From Bacteroidaceae bacterium (GTDB lineage: Bacteria; Bacteroidota; Bacteroidia; Bacteroidales; Bacteroidaceae), in contig JAFWPH010000012.1 in assembly GCA_017509605.1 (NCBI GenBank), positions 62,001 through 126,000 on the forward strand: DNA of 64,000 nucleotides, given 5' to 3'. The position numbers and the translations under genes are program-made. How positions within the stretch are numbered: position 1 is the stretch's first letter; each line of letters starts with the position of its first letter. This document shows, one piece after another, positions 25,571 through 30,735 of this stretch. The notes under the pieces are model-generated. The model saw only the letters and a list, made by a program, of their open reading frames with translations, did not search any database and was not told the DNA's origin.

Positions 25571-27094
25571 CTAAAGACTAATCTTATTGATTTCGCCCAG
25601 AGCGTCCTCGCTCTTATCGATGGCAGAGAGGACATCGAAGACACGGTCGCTCCAACCTGCGATGAGATACACATCGGGTTCTACGATGCGCAGAGGGAGC
25701 TGTCCGTAGCCAGCGAGGTCGAAGAGATAGAGCTTGGCATCGGGCACCATCTGCTTGTAGCGGTGCCAGGAGTTCTCAAAGGTCTTATCACGCCCCGTGC
25801 TGTCCCACATCTGCATATCGGTGAACATCATCACCTTGTCCATCTCCTTCTTCTGGCTGATGAGCCAGTCGATGACCTTATAACCATTAGTGCTGAAACC
25901 TACGGTGTTAGCCAGCCTCTCCAACTGGCGGGTAGCCATCAGGATGTTGTCGTTGGGCATATTCACCACTCTCCAGGTGTCGCCAAATATTCCAGCTACG
26001 ACCTGCTTGCAGCGGTTGCGGAGCAACATCGACAGCAAGAGACCTATATCAAAGTGACGAACAGTGCTCTTCAGGCTTATAGATGACCACATTGAACCGC
26101 TGACATCGGAAGCCAGCAAGACGCGTGTGTTCTCGTCGAAGCCTTCAATGTTGCTTGCAGAGGCCTTGACGGCGGCCTCCAAGGCATTCATCAGTGTTGC
26201 GGTGTGGCCGGAATCCACCTTCTCAATCTCGCGGTAGGCAGACAGATAGCGGAAGGGCAACTGCTTGGACTTCGCCACCTGCTGGGCATCAGCAAGGCGG
26301 TTGGCCACCTTCTGCATCTCGAGGAGGGAGATATCGGCCTGGAGCATATTTCGCAGGTTGCGCATCAGAGCCATATAACCCATCTTGCCGCTGTTCACCA
26401 GCTCTTCCCACTTCTGGCGGAAAGCCTCTCTCTTCAGCTCGTCGGAGTCGAACTGCTGCTGACCGAGTGCAGAGAGTTCTGTTTCCCAAGTATAAGGAGT
26501 CTCCAACTGGCCGTTCGCAATCTTGTCGAAAAGCGCCTGCTGCTCTTCGTCCTTGGCCTTGGGGTGAACGAGGAACAATGCGTCGCGGAGCTTCACCTCG
26601 AGATTATCGCGGTCGTACTTGGCGAACTGGTATTCGTCAAATCGGTTGAATGCACGCTGCAAACCGTTCTGAATCTGGCGCGACAACTTGCCCAGCTTCT
26701 TGCGTGGGTCGGTGGAAGGGTTGCGCCACTGGTAGCACATCAGCAACTCCATAATCTCGTCGGCACGAAGCACTGTCTTCTCCACGGCACGGGCCACAAG
26801 GTCGTCGCCATTGTGTACCTTTGCCAGTTCAACCAGGAGGAGCAGTGGAACGCTGCGGAGATTCATCACTGTGCGTGTATATACTGCGAGACGTGCCACA
26901 AACTCTGGAGACACCTTCTTGACAAGCTTTGCAATACGGTTGGTACGCTCGTCCTGCTTCTCGTAGAAAGTATCGCTGAGCGATGCAGTCACTACGGCAG
27001 AGTAGAGTTCCAACTCAGGGGTCATCGCGTAAGCGTTGGCGCCCTCGTAGTTCTTCTCGGTATTCTGTTCTCTCAACATAGAATTGTACTTCAT
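25571..27094 (-). CDS. TROVE domain protein, bacterial Ro60 (Rsr) family
   Basis: A 507-aa Ro60-type RNA-binding protein. The TROVE helical-repeat domain (~15-315) begins with YAMTPELELYSAVV and includes the pattern of paired helices around LRSVPLLLLVELAK. A von Willebrand A domain (~320-500) has the MIDAS motif DVSGSMWSS (Asp330, Ser332, Ser334). Known: Ro60 forms a ring that binds misfolded RNAs in its cavity and Y RNAs on its surface; in bacteria it can tether a Y RNA to an exonuclease. Here the gene follows, on the same strand, about 0.7 kb of tRNA-like sequence that could supply its Y RNAs. The divergent genes encode RNA-end processing enzymes. No signal peptide; cytoplasmic. Confidence 0.93.
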   Translation of the reverse strand: MKYNSMLREQNTEKNYEGANAYAMTPELELYSAVVTASLSDTFYEKQDERTNRIAKLVKKVSPEFVARLAVYTRTVMNLRSVPLLLLVELAKVHNGDDLVARAVEKTVLRADEIMELLMCYQWRNPSTDPRKKLGKLSRQIQNGLQRAFNRFDEYQFAKYDRDNLEVKLRDALFLVHPKAKDEEQQALFDKIANGQLETPYTWETELSALGQQQFDSDELKREAFRQKWEELVNSGKMGYMALMRNLRNMLQADISLLEMQKVANRLADAQQVAKSKQLPFRYLSAYREIEKVDSGHTATLMNALEAAVKASASNIEGFDENTRVLLASDVSGSMWSSISLKSTVRHFDIGLLLSMLLRNRCKQVVAGIFGDTWRVVNMPNDNILMATRQLERLANTVGFSTNGYKVIDWLISQKKEMDKVMMFTDMQMWDSTGRDKTFENSWHRYKQMVPDAKLYLFDLAGYGQLPLRIVEPDVYLIAGWSDRVFDVLSAIDKSEDALGEINKISL

Positions 27095-27159
27095 TTTCGT
27101 TACTTGTTAAATTAATTAGTTATTCATCATGTACATAAAAGGAAACGGTGCGACAGGCA

Positions 27160-27230
27160 TAGAGAGTCATGAATCCCTCGATTATCAGTCGAGTGCTTTC
27201 TGACGTAGCTAATGAAGTATCTCTCTACTA
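27160..27230 (-). ncRNA. Ile(GAT)-like tRNA remnant (module 5)
   Basis: An exact anticodon arm, CTCGA-CTGATAA-TCGAG (27177-27193, anticodon GAT), with a short D-arm-like GCT/AGC hairpin before it and an acceptor-like TAGAGAG/CTCTCTA stem. A normal T-arm is missing. Confidence 0.5.
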
Positions 27231-27235
27231 CGGCA
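27213..27235 (-). repeat. Y-RNA-like motif copy 5 (nearest the Ro60 gene)
   Basis: TGCCGTAG, spacer, TACTTCA; the only copy ending in A. Part of its spacer (CTCTCTA on the plus strand, 27221-27227) can pair with 27160-27166, forming a 7-bp acceptor-like stem around the Ile-like module. Confidence 0.65.
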
Positions 27236-27332
27236 ACCGTTTTTGGTAAGCAGAAGCGACAGGCGGGCAACAGGCGGGAGTCTCGCAAAGATTTTTGAGA
27301 AAAACCAGTAAAAACCCTCCCTCATGGTGGAG

Positions 27333-27356
27333 CGAAGTATCTGTCATCCTACGGCA
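27333..27356 (-). repeat. Y-RNA-like motif copy 4
   Basis: TGCCGTAG, 9-base spacer, TACTTCG. Followed on the minus strand by a short CTCC/GGAG stem and GGGTTTTT (27310-27330), which could act as a weak terminator or attenuator before the Ro60 gene. Confidence 0.65.
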
Positions 27357-27371
27357 TTCTGCGTTTTTTTG

Positions 27372-27444
27372 TTGCGGGGGCAGGACTCGAACCTGCGTCC
27401 TCAAGCTTATGAAACTTGCAAGCTACCAACTGCTCCACTCCGCT
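27372..27444 (-). ncRNA. Initiator-Met(CAT)-like tRNA mimic inside the array
   Basis: A 73-nt sequence in normal tRNA order: acceptor, D-arm GAGC-AGTTGGTA-GCTT, anticodon arm CAAGT-TTCATAA-GCTTG (anticodon CAT), T-arm GCAGG-TTCGAGT-CCTGC. Position 1 does not pair with 72, as in bacterial initiators. However, the three G-C pairs of an initiator anticodon stem are absent, acceptor pair 6-67 is A x C, and the 3' end reads ACA rather than CCA. It may be scored as a tRNA by software, but it looks like a mimic derived from tRNA-fMet. Confidence 0.6.
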
Positions 27445-27481
27445 GTATGAAGCAAGGCTACTAGCGAAAAGACACAGTCAT

Positions 27482-27533
27482 TGCTCTGCCCACTGAGCTA
27501 CATGGACGAATCCACGGCTGGATTTGAACCAGC
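27482..27533 (-). ncRNA. Circularly permuted tRNA-like module with UUCG-capped acceptor stem (module 3)
   Basis: Minus-strand order: T-arm (GCTGG/CCAGC with TTCAAAT loop), acceptor 3' strand CGTGGAT, then TC, then acceptor 5' strand GTCCATG, T8-A9, and a canonical D-arm (GCTC/GAGC). The seven acceptor pairs close on a UUCG loop, so the normal 5' and 3' ends of a tRNA are joined and there is no CCA end to charge. An anticodon-arm-like segment (CTCTTAA loop, 27535-27551) precedes the T-arm. Confidence 0.7.
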
Positions 27534-27551
27534 GACCCCTGGCTTAAGAGG

Positions 27552-27574
27552 CGAAGTAAGTCTTATCTACGGCA
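27552..27574 (-). repeat. Y-RNA-like motif copy 3
   Basis: TGCCGTAG, 8-base spacer, TACTTCG. The spacer bases ATAAGA pair with TCTTAT just upstream, giving a hairpin with the conserved GCCGTAG in its loop. Confidence 0.65.
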
Positions 27575-27620
27575 CTTGCTTATAAGATGTGAGGCGACAA
27601 GCGGTGAGGGTTCTAAACTA

Positions 27621-27682
27621 CACCAGCGAACTGGTGGCAGGAATCGAACCTGCACTTTCGAATCTGCTATCCGACGTTCAAC
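27621..27682 (-). ncRNA. tRNA-like module with UUCG-capped acceptor stem (module 2)
   Basis: Minus-strand order: a D-arm-like hairpin (27666-27682), a short TTCG-containing segment where the anticodon arm would be, a perfect T-arm GCAGG/CCTGC with TTCGATT loop (27637-27653), then CACCAG-TTCG-CTGGTG (27621-27636). The joined acceptor cannot be aminoacylated. Confidence 0.65.
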
Positions 27683-27687
27683 CATTA

Positions 27688-27710
27688 CGAAGTATTCCTC
27701 TCCTACGGCA
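27688..27710 (-). repeat. Y-RNA-like motif copy 2
   Basis: TGCCGTAG, 8-base spacer, TACTTCG; preceded on the minus strand by a CACCTTTTT/AAAAAAGTG hairpin. Confidence 0.65.
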
Positions 27711-27819
27711 CTCACTTTTTTATTAAAAAGGTGGGGTGCAACGGTCGAAAGCGGACTTTTGGGAAAACCCAACGTTGGTTATCAGGAACTGAATCCTGCA
27801 CCTTCTACGGTTTATCAAA

Positions 27820-27842
27820 CGAAGTAACCCCTCACTACGGCA
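27820..27842 (-). repeat. Y-RNA-like motif copy 1 (start of the array)
   Basis: TGCCGTAG, 8-base spacer, TACTTCG. Spacer bases GGGGT can pair with ACCCC near the end of the module (about 27733-27737). Confidence 0.65.
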
Positions 27843-27863
27843 ACCACACCTAAATTATACATC

Positions 27864-28044
27864 TTTCGGAAGTAAAAATGGAAATAGAAATGGAAGTAAA
27901 CTCGCTACGCTCTTGGGAGTTATGTGCTTTGCACAGGACGATAGCATTTAATTGCTGTAGTATTGTCCAGCACGAAAGTGCTTAACTTCCAGCCAGCACT
28001 GCTGGCTTAACTCCCTATTTAACTTCATTTTATAACTTCCGAAA
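27864..28044. other. Multi-hairpin element closed by a 10-bp inverted repeat
   Basis: TTTCGGAAGT (27864-27873) and ACTTCCGAAA (28035-28044) are perfectly complementary. Inside lie GGAAGT/ACTTCC (27892 and 27985), AACTC/GAGTT, TGTGC-TTT-GCACA, a GGAC/GTCC stem around AGCA/TGCT, AGCAC-GAAA-GTGCT and AGCCAG/CTGGCT. It would be in the leader of the array transcript. It could be a structured RNA or a dispersed intergenic repeat of this genus. Confidence 0.5.
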
Positions 28045-28095
28045 CTTCAGTAAATTATACTTTTCTTTCAAAGAACGCTTTCGTTTTTCTGGTTG

Positions 28096-28103
28096 CAAAA
28101 GTA
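28096..28103 (-). promoter_or_regulatory. -7 element (TACTTTTG) for the array and Ro60 transcript
   Basis: Minus-strand TACTTTTG fits TAnnTTTG. Its expected -33 region (about 28123-28128) lies inside operator 1. Transcription from here would cover the multi-hairpin element, the tRNA-like array and the Ro60 gene. Confidence 0.5.
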
Positions 28104-28112
28104 AAATGCCAC

Positions 28113-28131
28113 TACGCAATGTATTTGCGTA
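28113..28131. promoter_or_regulatory. Operator 1: TACGCAA-N5-TTGCGTA
   Basis: A perfect 7-bp inverted repeat with a 5-base spacer, placed over the expected -33 region of the leftward promoter. Confidence 0.6.
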
Positions 28132-28170
28132 AATCAAAAAATTTTCAGAAAAAGGTGAAAAAAACGACTT

Positions 28171-28189
28171 TACGCAAATAGGTTGCATA
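28171..28189. promoter_or_regulatory. Operator 2: TACGCAA-N5-TTGCATA
   Basis: Same 7-5-7 layout as operator 1 with one mismatch in the right arm, 58 bp away, placed over the expected -33 region of the rightward promoter. Confidence 0.6.
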
Positions 28190-28198
28190 GTTAGTGCC

Positions 28199-28206
28199 TA
28201 TCTTTG
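28199..28206 (+). promoter_or_regulatory. -7 element (TATCTTTG) for the rlaP-like operon
   Basis: TATCTTTG fits TAnnTTTG exactly and lies 31 bases before the ATG at 28237. No TTTG is found in the -33 region, which is occupied by operator 2. Confidence 0.55.
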
Positions 28207-28236
28207 CTTTTGCTTTGAATATAAACCTAATTTGAG

Positions 28237-29427
28237 ATGAACAATTTTGATGTTATCCGTCAGGACGGCAGGCTCCTTTACGAGTATATCCGGGGAAGTC
28301 ACCTCTACGGACTCAACAATGAGGACAGCGACATCGACACCAGCGGTGTCTATGTCTGCACACGTGACGAACTGTTCAGCTGCTTCGGCTACTCGCCCCA
28401 GGTGACTGACAGCCGCCACGACAACACATGGTATGAGATAGGAGAACTGGTCCGTCTGCTTCTGAAATCCAACCCCACGGTGCTGGAAAGCCTCTTTGTG
28501 CCGAGGGACAAAGTAATCGGTGACATTCATCCCATCATGCAGATGGTCATCGACCAACGAGACCAGTTCATCAGCAAGCAGTGCTTCAATCCTTTCTTCG
28601 GCTATGCCAAGTCGCAGATAGAGAAGGCATGGGGACTGAACAAGAAGATTGTCAATCCTGTGACCGAACGCCTGACGCCATACGATTTTATCTATACTTT
28701 CAAGGGGCAGGGTAGCACGAAGTTCAGCGACTGGCTCGACAATCGCAGTATGCATCAGGAGTTCTGCGGTCTTGTCAACGTGCCCAACATGCACGACATC
28801 TATGGCGTGTATTATGACTTTGGAGCGCACACCGCCGCTTATCCGGACTGGAGAGAAGACGGGCGGTTTCTATCTTTCTGCCAAGAATATTATGGAGACA
28901 CGGAAAAGGTCGCTGTCATCGAAAGACTGTCAAAGATGGTGCCGATAGGCTATCGTGGTGTCATCAAGAAGGATGCCAAGGCCGATGAGATACGACTCTC
29001 CTCCATTGACGACAAGCACACTCGTCCGATGTGCTTCATCTCCTACAACCAAAGTGGATACTCCATGCATTGCCGTCAATATGCGGAATACCAGATATGG
29101 GTGAGCAACCGCAACCCGAAACGCTATGAGTCGAACCTTGACAAGAACTACGACTCGAAGAACATGATGCACTGCTTCCGGCTGATGCACATGGCAGCGG
29201 AGATAGCGGAGGGTAAGGGAGTGATACTGCAACGCACCGAGGACAGGCAGTTCCTGATGGATGTGCGCAACCACAAGTTCGAATACGAGGAAATCATCGA
29301 GATGCTGGAACGTGATAAGGAGCGGATGAACCATCTGATGGAACAGTCCACCATCCGTGAGAAGATTGACACGGACTTTGTCAATAACCTGATGATAGAG
29401 ATTCGGAAACAACAATTCAGAATGTAA
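28237..29427 (+). CDS. RlaP-type nucleotidyltransferase (DNA polymerase beta superfamily), predicted RNA repair
   Basis: A 396-aa protein whose N-terminus carries the polymerase-beta-type nucleotidyltransferase signature: Gly20-Ser21 in RGSHLYG and Ser31-Asp32-x-Asp34 in EDSDID. The rest (~60-390) is mostly helical and matches the overall form of the RlaP family (RNA repair pathway DNA polymerase beta family). Known: members were proposed from gene neighbourhoods to modify RNA ends; a firm reaction is not established to my knowledge. It is the first gene of a tight three-gene operon (1-bp gap to the kinase) divergent from the Ro60 gene and its tRNA-like array. A decayed copy of its first codons lies at 30682. 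Confidence 0.82.
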   Translation: MNNFDVIRQDGRLLYEYIRGSHLYGLNNEDSDIDTSGVYVCTRDELFSCFGYSPQVTDSRHDNTWYEIGELVRLLLKSNPTVLESLFVPRDKVIGDIHPIMQMVIDQRDQFISKQCFNPFFGYAKSQIEKAWGLNKKIVNPVTERLTPYDFIYTFKGQGSTKFSDWLDNRSMHQEFCGLVNVPNMHDIYGVYYDFGAHTAAYPDWREDGRFLSFCQEYYGDTEKVAVIERLSKMVPIGYRGVIKKDAKADEIRLSSIDDKHTRPMCFISYNQSGYSMHCRQYAEYQIWVSNRNPKRYESNLDKNYDSKNMMHCFRLMHMAAEIAEGKGVILQRTEDRQFLMDVRNHKFEYEEIIEMLERDKERMNHLMEQSTIREKIDTDFVNNLMIEIRKQQFRM

Positions 29428-29428
29428 T

Positions 29429-29899
29429 ATGAAGAAACTTCCATTTGACATTAGGCAGACCTGTCAGATTATCGTGTTCATCGGCATTCAAGCCAGTGGA
29501 AAAACCACCTTCTTCAAGCAATGGTTGGCTCCTCATGGTTATGTCCATATCAATCTTGACACTCTACGCACACGTCCCAGGGAATCGCTGGCCATCCAGG
29601 AGTGTTATGACCGTGAACAGTCGTTCGTCGTCGACAACACCAATCCTGAGAAAACCGATAGGGAGAGGTACATTCAAGATGCCAAGGCGCATGGCTATGA
29701 GGTGATAGGCATTTTCTTTCAGAGTATAGTGAGAGACTGCATTGTCAGGAATGATATGAGAGAGAAAAAAGTCCCCGTGAAGGCAATCCCCTGTACACAA
29801 AACAAATTACAGCTGCCCAACTATGCTGAAGGATTTGATAAACTCTATTTCGTGAGAATAAAGGATATTGATTTTTTAATATCAGAATGGAGGGAATGA
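29429..29899 (+). CDS. P-loop kinase, polynucleotide 5'-kinase-like
   Basis: A small (156 aa) P-loop phosphotransferase. Walker A is G19IQASGKTTF, an Asp/Asn pair follows in VVDNTNPEKTDRERYI (Asp69), and a lid-like Arg-rich stretch is at ~105-115 (VRDCIVRNDMREKK). This resembles the kinase half of T4-type polynucleotide kinase and bacterial AAA_33 proteins. In context it probably phosphorylates 5'-OH RNA ends, the step that would prepare substrates for a Thg1-type polymerase. It sits 1 bp after the nucleotidyltransferase and 3 bp before thg1. A small-molecule kinase cannot be excluded. Confidence 0.78.
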   Translation: MKKLPFDIRQTCQIIVFIGIQASGKTTFFKQWLAPHGYVHINLDTLRTRPRESLAIQECYDREQSFVVDNTNPEKTDRERYIQDAKAHGYEVIGIFFQSIVRDCIVRNDMREKKVPVKAIPCTQNKLQLPNYAEGFDKLYFVRIKDIDFLISEWRE

Positions 29900-29902
29900 A
29901 AC

Positions 29903-30676
29903 ATGGACTTTAATACACTTGACAAACTGATGAGACGTTTCGAGCAGTCACTGGATAGGACCATGCTCAATGGGATTTATATGGTGGCTAGACTAGACGG
30001 GCATGGATTCACGCGCCTTACCAAGAAAGAATGGAATCTGGAGAAACCTTTTGACATTCGGTTTCGTGATGCCATGATAGAAACCACAAAGCATTTGATG
30101 GATTGTGGTTTTCGCATGATCTACGGCTACACGCAGAGTGACGAGATATCTCTTCTATTCCATTTGAAAGACAACACTTTTGGCAGAAAAGAGAGAAAAC
30201 TGTTGTCTATACTTGCAGCAGAAGCATCTGTGGCGTTTTCTATGCAGACAGGCAGAGCGGCTGTATTCGATAACAGACTTGTTCCTTTGCCAACAATGGA
30301 AAACGTGGTGGACTATTTCAGATGGCGGCAGGAGGATGCACACCGTAATTCCCTAAACTCACACTGTTATTGGAAATTACGCCAGGAAGGTGTCTCTGCA
30401 GATGAAGCACAAGAGCAACTAGCAGGAATCTCCAATAGTGAGAAGAATGAACTTTTGTTCTCGAGAGGCGTCAATTATACTGATTTACCTTCATGGCAGA
30501 AACGAGGCGTTGGTATGTTCTATCGTGATGATGATAGGCAAGGCTTCAATCCTATTACTAAAGAAACTACATCTTATAAAAGACGCATGCTATGTGTAGA
30601 GATGGAATTGCCGATAGGACAAGAGTATTCCAAATTGATTAACACGGTCGTTGAGGATTCAAATAAAGGGGATTAG
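29903..30676 (+). CDS. thg1: Thg1-like 3'-5' RNA polymerase (tRNA-His guanylyltransferase family)
   Basis: A 257-aa Thg1-family protein. The metal-binding carboxylates are visible in ARLDGHGFTRLTK (Asp32) and YTQSDEISLLF (Asp80, Glu81). The family's HRNSLNSHCYWKLR segment is present at ~150-163. Known: Thg1 and bacterial or archaeal Thg1-like proteins add nucleotides to the 5' end of tRNA in the 3'-5' direction; bacterial forms favour templated repair of 5'-truncated tRNAs. It is the last gene of the rlaP-kinase-thg1 operon, beside a Ro60 gene and tRNA-mimicking RNAs, so a role in tRNA 5'-end repair is inferred. Confidence 0.92.
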   Translation: MDFNTLDKLMRRFEQSLDRTMLNGIYMVARLDGHGFTRLTKKEWNLEKPFDIRFRDAMIETTKHLMDCGFRMIYGYTQSDEISLLFHLKDNTFGRKERKLLSILAAEASVAFSMQTGRAAVFDNRLVPLPTMENVVDYFRWRQEDAHRNSLNSHCYWKLRQEGVSADEAQEQLAGISNSEKNELLFSRGVNYTDLPSWQKRGVGMFYRDDDRQGFNPITKETTSYKRRMLCVEMELPIGQEYSKLINTVVEDSNKGD

Positions 30677-30681
30677 AAACA

Positions 30682-30735
30682 ATAGATTTTGATGTAATCA
30701 AAAATGGGGAAAGGCTGCTGTATGAGTACATACGC
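30682..30735 (+). pseudogene. Decayed 5' fragment of a second rlaP-like gene
   Basis: Six bases after thg1 one frame reads IDFDVIKNGERLLYEYIR. This matches the first ~19 residues of the nucleotidyltransferase at 28237 (NFDVIRQDGRLLYEYIRG), then diverges. There is no ATG and no GS...DxD motif. It is read as the remains of a tandem copy. Confidence 0.55.

Follow-up and report, generated by a model that had tools for sequence, protein, structure and literature searches.

Why does a Bacteroidaceae bacterium arrange a gene for Ro60, an array of small RNA genes and an operon of three RNA-end enzymes around a single intergenic region? The question is raised by the locus at positions 25571-30735 of a 64,000-nucleotide (64 kb) stretch of contig JAFWPH010000012.1, the whole of which is referred to here as the window. 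The locus is probably a stress-switched RNA-repair locus, the Bacteroidota version of the Ro60-Y RNA-RtcB system, in which the set of Y RNAs is enlarged and an operon for rebuilding RNA ends has been added. A preliminary description of this DNA had proposed an RNA-repair setting in which Ro60 works with tRNA-mimic RNAs, and that setting is supported. It had also named a Ro60 gene and a divergent operon of an RlaP-like transferase, a polynucleotide 5'-kinase (PNK) and a Thg1 polymerase; the profile matches (Pfam, NCBIfam) from which the gene identities were taken bear this out.

The Ro60/Rsr orthologue (25571-27094, minus strand, 507 amino acids) has both the TROVE HEAT-ring and the C-terminal von Willebrand factor A (vWA) domain that are required of such a protein. 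It matches PF05731 (E 3e-26) and PF25045 (E 1e-7), both over the cut-offs, and carries the metal ion-dependent adhesion site (MIDAS) motif DVSGSM at residue 330. Relatives with known structure are 2nvo and 1yvp, and relatives in Bacteroidota are 55-85% identical. The divergent operon on the plus strand begins with a polymerase-beta nucleotidyltransferase of 396 amino acids (28237-29427) with the motifs GSHLYGL...DSDID. Its match to PF10127 (E 7e-21, above the Pfam cut-off) extends over residues 9-130 of 396 and profile positions 16-139 of 249 and is not full length; because only part of the profile is covered, the protein is best named RlaP-like. A sequence search of the PDB found no relative for the C-terminal ~265 amino acids, and a structure prediction was discarded as too poor (mean predicted local distance difference test score 57.8). 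After a gap of 1 bp follows a kinase-only PNK (29429-29899, plus strand, 156 amino acids). It matches AAA_33 (E 9e-14), its top NCBIfam match is PNK-3'Pase (E 9e-19), and its nearest solved structure is the kinase domain of mammalian PNKP (E 3e-13); the P-loop GIQASGKTT and the DTLR motif fit the P-loop and DxxR of the PNK kinase domain. The third gene, 3 bp further on, encodes a Thg1 or Thg1-like 3'-5' polymerase (29903-30676, plus strand, 257 amino acids; PF04446 E 4e-31, PF14413 E 4e-18) with the motifs RLDGHGF and QSDEIS, a Thg1 palm with the catalytic acidic residues and the Thg1-like protein 5axk as closest solved structure (E 7e-32). The catalytic motifs of all three enzymes are intact. 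A PADLOC scan found no member of its defence systems.

The array that precedes Ro60 on the minus strand (27142-27850) consists of five RNA units and one tRNA-Met-like gene. The motif U-GCCGUAG-N-UACUUC occurs five times between 27850 and 27142 on this strand. The 5-8 bases that precede it pair with bases ~75-120 nucleotides downstream, in every unit beside an invariant GC. Each unit is closed by an outer helix of its own. Unit 1 (type A, 27730-27850), the first of the array, is closed by GGUGUGGU/ACCCCACC, unit 2 (type B, 27586-27718) by GUGAG/CUCAC, unit 3 (type C, 27449-27582) by GCAAG/CUUGC, unit 4 (type D, 27248-27364) by GCAGAA/UUCUGC and unit 5 (type E, 27142-27243), directly upstream of Ro60, by ACGGU/ACCGU, all on the minus strand. 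A covariance model, R1, that was built without any sequence from the window finds these five units (45.2, 47.9, 49.7, 47.6 and 67.6 bits, in the same order) with E-values from 7e-18 to 4e-11 (6.9e-12 for unit 4 and 6.6e-18 for unit 5) and matches nothing outside the array in the 64 kb.

What kind of RNA are these units? Read from the ends inward, the fold consists of a variable outer helix, a bulged U, GC paired with GC, CG paired with CG, UAG, a covarying upper helix and UACUUC. The Ro60 site of known Y RNAs follows this plan, a terminal helix in which one strand has a bulged pyrimidine and the other a bulge (PMC4726728), and for this reason the units are called Y RNAs; they would be expected to bind Ro60 through this stem. 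The motif adjoins Ro60 in most of 80 Bacteroidota loci, on the Ro60 strand, with up to six Y RNAs per array, and 214 units from beside Bacteroidota Ro60 genes were used for the fold statistics. In 183 of the 214 (86%) the outer helix adjoining the GC has 5 or more bp, against ~10% when the 3' halves are swapped. These helices, which come from 70-odd loci, have 51 different sequences, so that compensatory changes back the fold. The base between the outer helix and the GC is a bulged U in 210 of 214 units, and the CG/CG pairing across the YYUGUY bulge is found in 90-94%. The upper helix, which was not used in selecting units, is paired in 84% of cases compared with 58% after shuffling (maximum 60.5%). 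In a set of 31 units 88.4% of the cells are paired, compared with 64.6% when shuffled and 34-49% when slid; changes on both sides number 159 versus 48.5, and the covariation score is 0.69 versus 0.23. RNAalifold recovers the same stem unaided. Thus the paired ends with a bulge, the presumed Ro60 site that is looked for in a bacterial Y RNA, are present and supported by covariation. Folding of single units gave z-scores near zero, which by this method alone lends no support to a structure. A hairpin of GUAG with CUUC inside each unit was considered and rejected, since neither side varies and the upper helix is paired elsewhere.

The presence of TROVE and of Y RNAs is associated across 301 genomes of the window's family (p 2e-8). 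R1 also matches two RNAs that adjoin the TROVE gene of Caulobacter phage CcrColossus (E 6e-11 and 1e-10), one of which overlaps a weak Rfam YrlA match; scores of 24-28 bits in three genomes (G049, G109, G184) were taken as chance. Some units stand away from Ro60. Three Y RNA motifs lie beside a shortened WYL gene at L205:7000-8436 (G198:C29), possibly a decayed copy of the locus, and further units without a nearby Ro60 were found on G198:C90 and G044:C89.

The stem is common to all five units, and it is the heads that differ. Units 2 and 3 have circularly permuted tRNA heads in which a T arm is followed by the 3' acceptor strand, UUCG, the 5' acceptor strand and a D arm, the tRNA being opened at the anticodon, where the Ro60 stem joins. 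In unit 3 the permuted tRNA is complete, with a CGUGGA-UUCG-UCCAUG acceptor hairpin; unit 2 has a CACCAG-UUCG-CUGGUG hairpin and a reduced D arm. Such a head, by which YrlA is recognised, is absent from units 1, 4 and 5. The head of unit 4, beginning GGGAGGGUUUUUACUGG, is near-identical in the arrays of L028 and L029. In unit 3 the Rfam YrlA model matches the head alone (34 bits, E 2.4e-5); with window scores of 34.0 and 19.9 bits its gathering threshold of 69 is not reached, and none of the nine related loci scanned reached it either. Among the relatives, a T arm with a hairpin is found in 52 of the 214 units, a few of these by chance, and this count led to the rejection of a tRNA origin for all units. 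The acceptor hairpins of relatives vary in sequence and keep their pairing, with UUCG, GAAA, GCAA or UUUU loops. The preliminary description had seen the whole array as tRNA-derived modules; the array is real and that description fits part of it, but the feature common to the five units is the Y-RNA stem.

The sixth element of the array, between units 3 and 4, is a tRNA-Met(CAT)-like gene (27371-27444, minus strand; ARAGORN; Rfam tRNA 53.8 bits). It is nearly complete, lacks an encoded CCA and has its anticodon stem recast to CAAGU/GCUUG. It is 88% identical to a second genomic tRNA-Met copy (G000:C36, L062) that is initiator-like in appearance, and it is apparently derived from the initiator tRNA. 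Orthologues stand at the same place in L028, L029, L066, L073, L074, L076 and others. ARAGORN calls tRNAs in 26 of 72 arrays, and a few of these calls (e.g. tRNA-Leu in L072-L074 and L090) belong to Y-RNA units. Genes for tRNAs of ordinary appearance (Met, Lys, Arg, Ser, Tyr, Pro, Asn) lie between the Y RNAs of L096, L097, L101, L133 and L080. One tRNA gene of L096 ends in an encoded CCA directly against the outer helix of the Y RNA that follows, as though processing of the tRNA released the 5' end of this Y RNA.

Which genes belong with Ro60 and its Y RNAs? The neighbours were surveyed in 8 kb at 86 Ro60 loci, mainly from related metagenome bins and mostly from the rumen. One contig was counted twice, a few loci had been included for RlaP or PNK-Thg1 rather than Ro60, and the counts are lower bounds because many contigs end within the 8 kb. 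A WYL-domain regulator is near Ro60 in 36 of the 86 loci, mostly divergent, and RtcB in 33, with 33 of 34 RtcB genes on the Ro60 strand. RlaP of the window's type was found in 10 loci, classical RlaP in 6, Thg1 in 7 and PNK in 5. RtcA was noticed near none of the loci, although RtcA was not searched for specifically. All three enzymes adjoin Ro60 in the window, L073 and L076 only, that is in three of about 80 loci (~4%); in L076 the full set is arranged as WYL-RlaP-Thg1-PNK facing five Y RNAs, Ro60 and RtcB. The proposal that the four proteins form a conserved unit therefore does not hold: tabulating co-occurrence at the TROVE loci of relatives, which had been suggested as the check on it, shows the full trio to be rare and WYL and RtcB to be the usual partners. 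The conserved core is the WYL regulator, the Y RNAs, Ro60, RtcB and a common palindrome; RlaP and PNK-Thg1 appear to be accessory enzymes for end repair that the regulon has captured. Even within the window's family the parts are sparse, with TROVE in 7, RlaP in 6, Thg1 in 4 and clear Y RNAs in 7 of the 301 genomes.

Several other features were noticed at these loci. In L073, which has the window's gene order, the RlaP frame is apparently interrupted (L073:6640-6650). A family of ~362 amino acids that matches nothing in Pfam or PADLOC adjoins Ro60-Y arrays in seven loci (L109:7165-8253, and cluster c4 in L066, L070, L096, L106, L136 and L139). Downstream of the WYL gene by the Y array of L028 there is a match of 74 bits to Rfam FopS, a Bacteroidetes small RNA family (L028:6397-6462). 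A 317-kb contig from the window's family that is jumbo phage-like (G021:C26) encodes a TROVE protein (28% identical) and Thg1 (L030:10028-11374 and L031:7883-8917).

The palindrome TACGCAA-N5-TTGCGTA ties these genes together. Two copies lie in the intergenic region of the window, where they overlap the promoter -33 region. Operator 1 (28113-28131, TACGCAATGTATTTGCGTA) has perfect half-sites, and 9 nucleotides from it there is a putative -7 box for the array and Ro60 (28096-28103, minus strand, TACTTTTG). Operator 2 (28171-28189, TACGCAAATAGGTTGCATA) has one mismatch and is likewise 9 nucleotides from a putative -7 box, that of RlaP-PNK-Thg1 (28199-28206, plus strand, TATCTTTG). The two boxes, one per direction, are of the Bacteroidota type (TAnnTTTG). 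In relatives 43 of 73 testable loci have the palindrome in the 450 bp that precede the array or Ro60, where shuffles predict 0.2. Its density is 1.56 per kb there versus 0.025 per kb elsewhere, and a -7 box lies 9-10 nucleotides away at 22 of 51 operators. Among the other palindrome sites in these loci, 18 of 24 are by RtcB, WYL, RlaP or PNK genes. In the window's genus the palindrome is found away from Ro60, between RtcB and a WYL gene in one genome (G017) and upstream of RtcB in another (G065). In L090 one operator region is common to RlaP and RtcB. Because the palindrome is common to all of them, the operator marks one regulon that contains the Y RNAs, Ro60, RtcB and WYL, joined in this lineage by RlaP and PNK-Thg1. 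Adjacency of the genes suggests that the WYL regulator reads the palindrome. The earlier statement that no ligase lies here is true of the window, in which there is no RNA ligase, and none was found in its own genome bin (88% complete), but relatives, including members of the same genus, have RtcB under the same operator. A perfect palindrome also lies elsewhere in the window's genome (L058:5969, G000:C73:41968), between genes for 472 and 409 amino acids that match no Pfam family and are possible members of the regulon.

PNK and Thg1 form a pair of their own. The preliminary description had treated this pairing as meaningful, and it is in fact a published bacterial association, with PNK directly before Thg1, interpreted as the kinase supplying the 5'-phosphate that Thg1 requires (PMC2904730). 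Thg1 depends on a 5'-phosphate, and Thg1-like proteins prefer to mend 5'-truncated tRNAs by templated 3'-5' addition (PMC6471195). The two-gene operon turned up in other Bacteroidota as well (L241, L242, L244, L245), in most cases at a distance from Ro60. At L245:4973-10368 the genes for Hen1, Pnkp, PNK and Thg1 stand in a row, so that two RNA-repair cassettes lie side by side. Hen1-Pnkp is a known bacterial RNA-repair pair. In genome G082 PNK-Thg1 faces a three-unit Y array of its own and a perfect palindrome; Ro60 lies 0.8 Mb away, accompanied by four Y RNAs and by a WYL gene. Across 375 genomes at the level of the class, Y RNAs occur in 4 of 7 genomes with Thg1 compared with 16 of 375 overall (p 7e-5; p 1e-3 when the window is excluded).

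How might such a locus work? RNA damage would switch on the WYL regulon, and both transcripts would start from the one intergenic region with its two operators. The five Y RNAs, with one Ro60-binding stem and differing heads, would serve as adaptors on Ro60, and Ro60 with an adaptor would capture damaged tRNA-like RNA and present it. The permuted tRNA heads, with their tetraloop-closed acceptor stem, may dock tRNA-binding enzymes; since the acceptor stem is capped and has no free end, docking would be possible without charging or trimming. Scaffolds, decoys or templates had been suggested for the array RNAs, a list that is better replaced by Y RNAs acting as Ro60 adaptors, and nothing supports a template. 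Clean breaks, with a 3'-phosphate or 2',3'-cyclic phosphate and a 5'-OH, would be sealed by RtcB, which in relatives is a member of the regulon encoded elsewhere. Where an end has lost nucleotides, PNK would phosphorylate the 5'-OH, Thg1 would then re-add 5' nucleotides in the 3'-to-5' direction with the opposite strand as template, and RlaP would re-add 3' nucleotides. Repair of an acceptor stem requires no ligase, and therefore the trio could work without one beside it. A bolder version, which we put forward tentatively and regard as rather doubtful, is that every type of Y RNA (A-E, whose outer helices and heads stay type-specific across genera) brings an enzyme of its own, be it RtcB, RlaP, PNK-Thg1 or a nuclease, to one Ro60 ring. 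The result would be a programmable particle for RNA triage and repair in which tRNA ends are rebuilt in both directions, the 5' by Thg1 and the 3' by RlaP, under one WYL regulon.

A number of observations weigh against the repair mechanism. The window's own bin, which is 88% complete, has neither a detectable RtcB nor a close WYL orthologue, and two parts of the model are for that reason borrowed from relatives. The low share of loci in which the trio adjoins Ro60 tells against it, as does the fact that PNK-Thg1 mostly stands elsewhere, without the operator. PNK destroys the 5'-OH that RtcB needs, and so the two branches must serve different ends. Rebuilt anticodon-loop ends would still call for a ligase, and the mechanism itself is deduced from sequence. 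Because the bins are related and mostly from the rumen, the neighbour counts are not independent events.

Could the locus serve degradation instead? Ro60 and the Y RNAs might hold PNPase or another exonuclease, like the RYPER of Deinococcus, and clear damaged tRNAs and rRNA, while the nearby enzymes have a separate function. RYPER is the only bacterial Ro60-Y particle worked out in detail (PMC4726728, PMC7790460), each of the five heads could gate a nuclease of its own, and the trio is adjacent in few loci. We nevertheless consider this unlikely, since no nuclease recurs beside the 86 loci, where RtcB is present in 33 and RlaP of either kind in ~15, and the shared operator puts RtcB, RlaP and PNK-Thg1 together with Ro60 and the Y RNAs. 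Degradation and repair could also coexist. Similarly improbable is that RlaP-PNK-Thg1 is a mobile RNA-end cassette that inserted by chance at a Ro60-Y locus and has only the promoter region in common with it. The trio is indeed rare and patchy, its order varies (RlaP-PNK-Thg1 in the window, PNK-Thg1-RlaP in L076) and PNK-Thg1 stands alone in other genomes. Against chance insertion stand the operator copies that face both transcripts with equal spacing to the -7 box, the PNK-Thg1 of G082, which has a Y array and a perfect operator of its own so far from Ro60, the single operator region of RlaP and RtcB in L090 and the co-occurrence of Thg1 and Y RNAs at the level of genomes.

A decoy function is the least probable of these explanations and in our view very unlikely. 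The mimic Y RNAs and the tRNA-Met would compete for anticodon nucleases or for tRNA-cleaving enzymes of phages or toxins, and the repair enzymes would undo the damage. Such a role has been proposed for YrlA (PMC7790460), and it would suit the tRNA calls in the arrays, the presence of TROVE in many phages and the phage-like contig with TROVE and Thg1. The heads are opened at the anticodon, however, and hence lack the target of an anticodon nuclease, and most units have the Ro60 stem yet no tRNA-like head. The stress-switched repair locus remains the preferred reading.

A literature search that did not cover Burroughs and Aravind (2016) or Chen et al. (2014) found no description of Bacteroidota arrays with up to six Y RNAs or of their common stem, and, within the same limit, none of an operator shared with RtcB and WYL or of PNK-Thg1-RlaP joined to Ro60-Y. 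The locus is of interest for the function of bacterial Ro60 and Y RNAs and for the cellular substrates of Thg1-like proteins and RlaP, since all of these are joined here in one regulated unit. It also offers handles on them: the five predicted Y RNAs combine a common stem with heads that differ, an operator is predicted, and chemistry constrains the order in which the enzymes can act. A structure-supported family of Bacteroidota Y RNAs, which Rfam 15 misses at its thresholds, lies by most of the Ro60 genes examined. A role of bacterial Ro60 in triggering lupus autoimmunity has been discussed, and as the closest relatives are gut and rumen bacteria, the RNA partners of this Ro60 are worth knowing.

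How does the locus compare with known systems? The association of Ro60, tRNA-mimic Y RNAs and RtcB has been described for the Salmonella rsr-yrlBA-rtcBA operon (PMC7790460), and both systems combine a Ro60 orthologue, tRNA-mimic Y RNAs and the RtcB ligase, here in relatives, in one regulated unit with damaged tRNA as the likely signal and substrate. They differ in that as many as six Y RNAs (five in the window) lie upstream of Ro60 here, that RtcB may lie elsewhere and that RlaP and PNK-Thg1 are added in some loci. Salmonella uses RtcR with sigma-54, whereas here there are WYL and a palindromic operator, although no genome-wide search for RtcR was made. YrlA (Rfam RF02553) has the same permuted head of T arm, acceptor hairpin and D arm, and a UUACUUC-like element near the 5' end is also present in phage YrlA matches (L250). 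In contrast to YrlA, the Ro60 stem here is GCCGUAG...CGYYUGUYGC, most units have no tRNA head and the Bacteroidota arrays scanned stay below the gathering score. Vertebrate Y RNAs (PMC4726728) likewise have their presumed Ro60 site in a terminal helix that carries one bulged pyrimidine and, across from it, a bulge in the other strand, but the bulged base here is U and not C and the bulge has six and not three nucleotides; no sequence homology is claimed. RlaP is known as a repair nucleotidyltransferase (PMC7824862, which cites Burroughs and Aravind 2016). The window's protein resembles RlaP (PF10127) in its polymerase-beta core, intact G-S and D-x-D motifs and RNA-repair neighbourhood, and differs in matching over the first ~120 residues only, in its 396 amino acids versus ~250 and in a C-terminal part without known relatives. 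The published PNK-Thg1 operons (PMC2904730) have the same kinase-only PNK immediately upstream of Thg1; here RlaP has joined the pair, and the three genes stand opposite a Ro60-Y array under a common operator.

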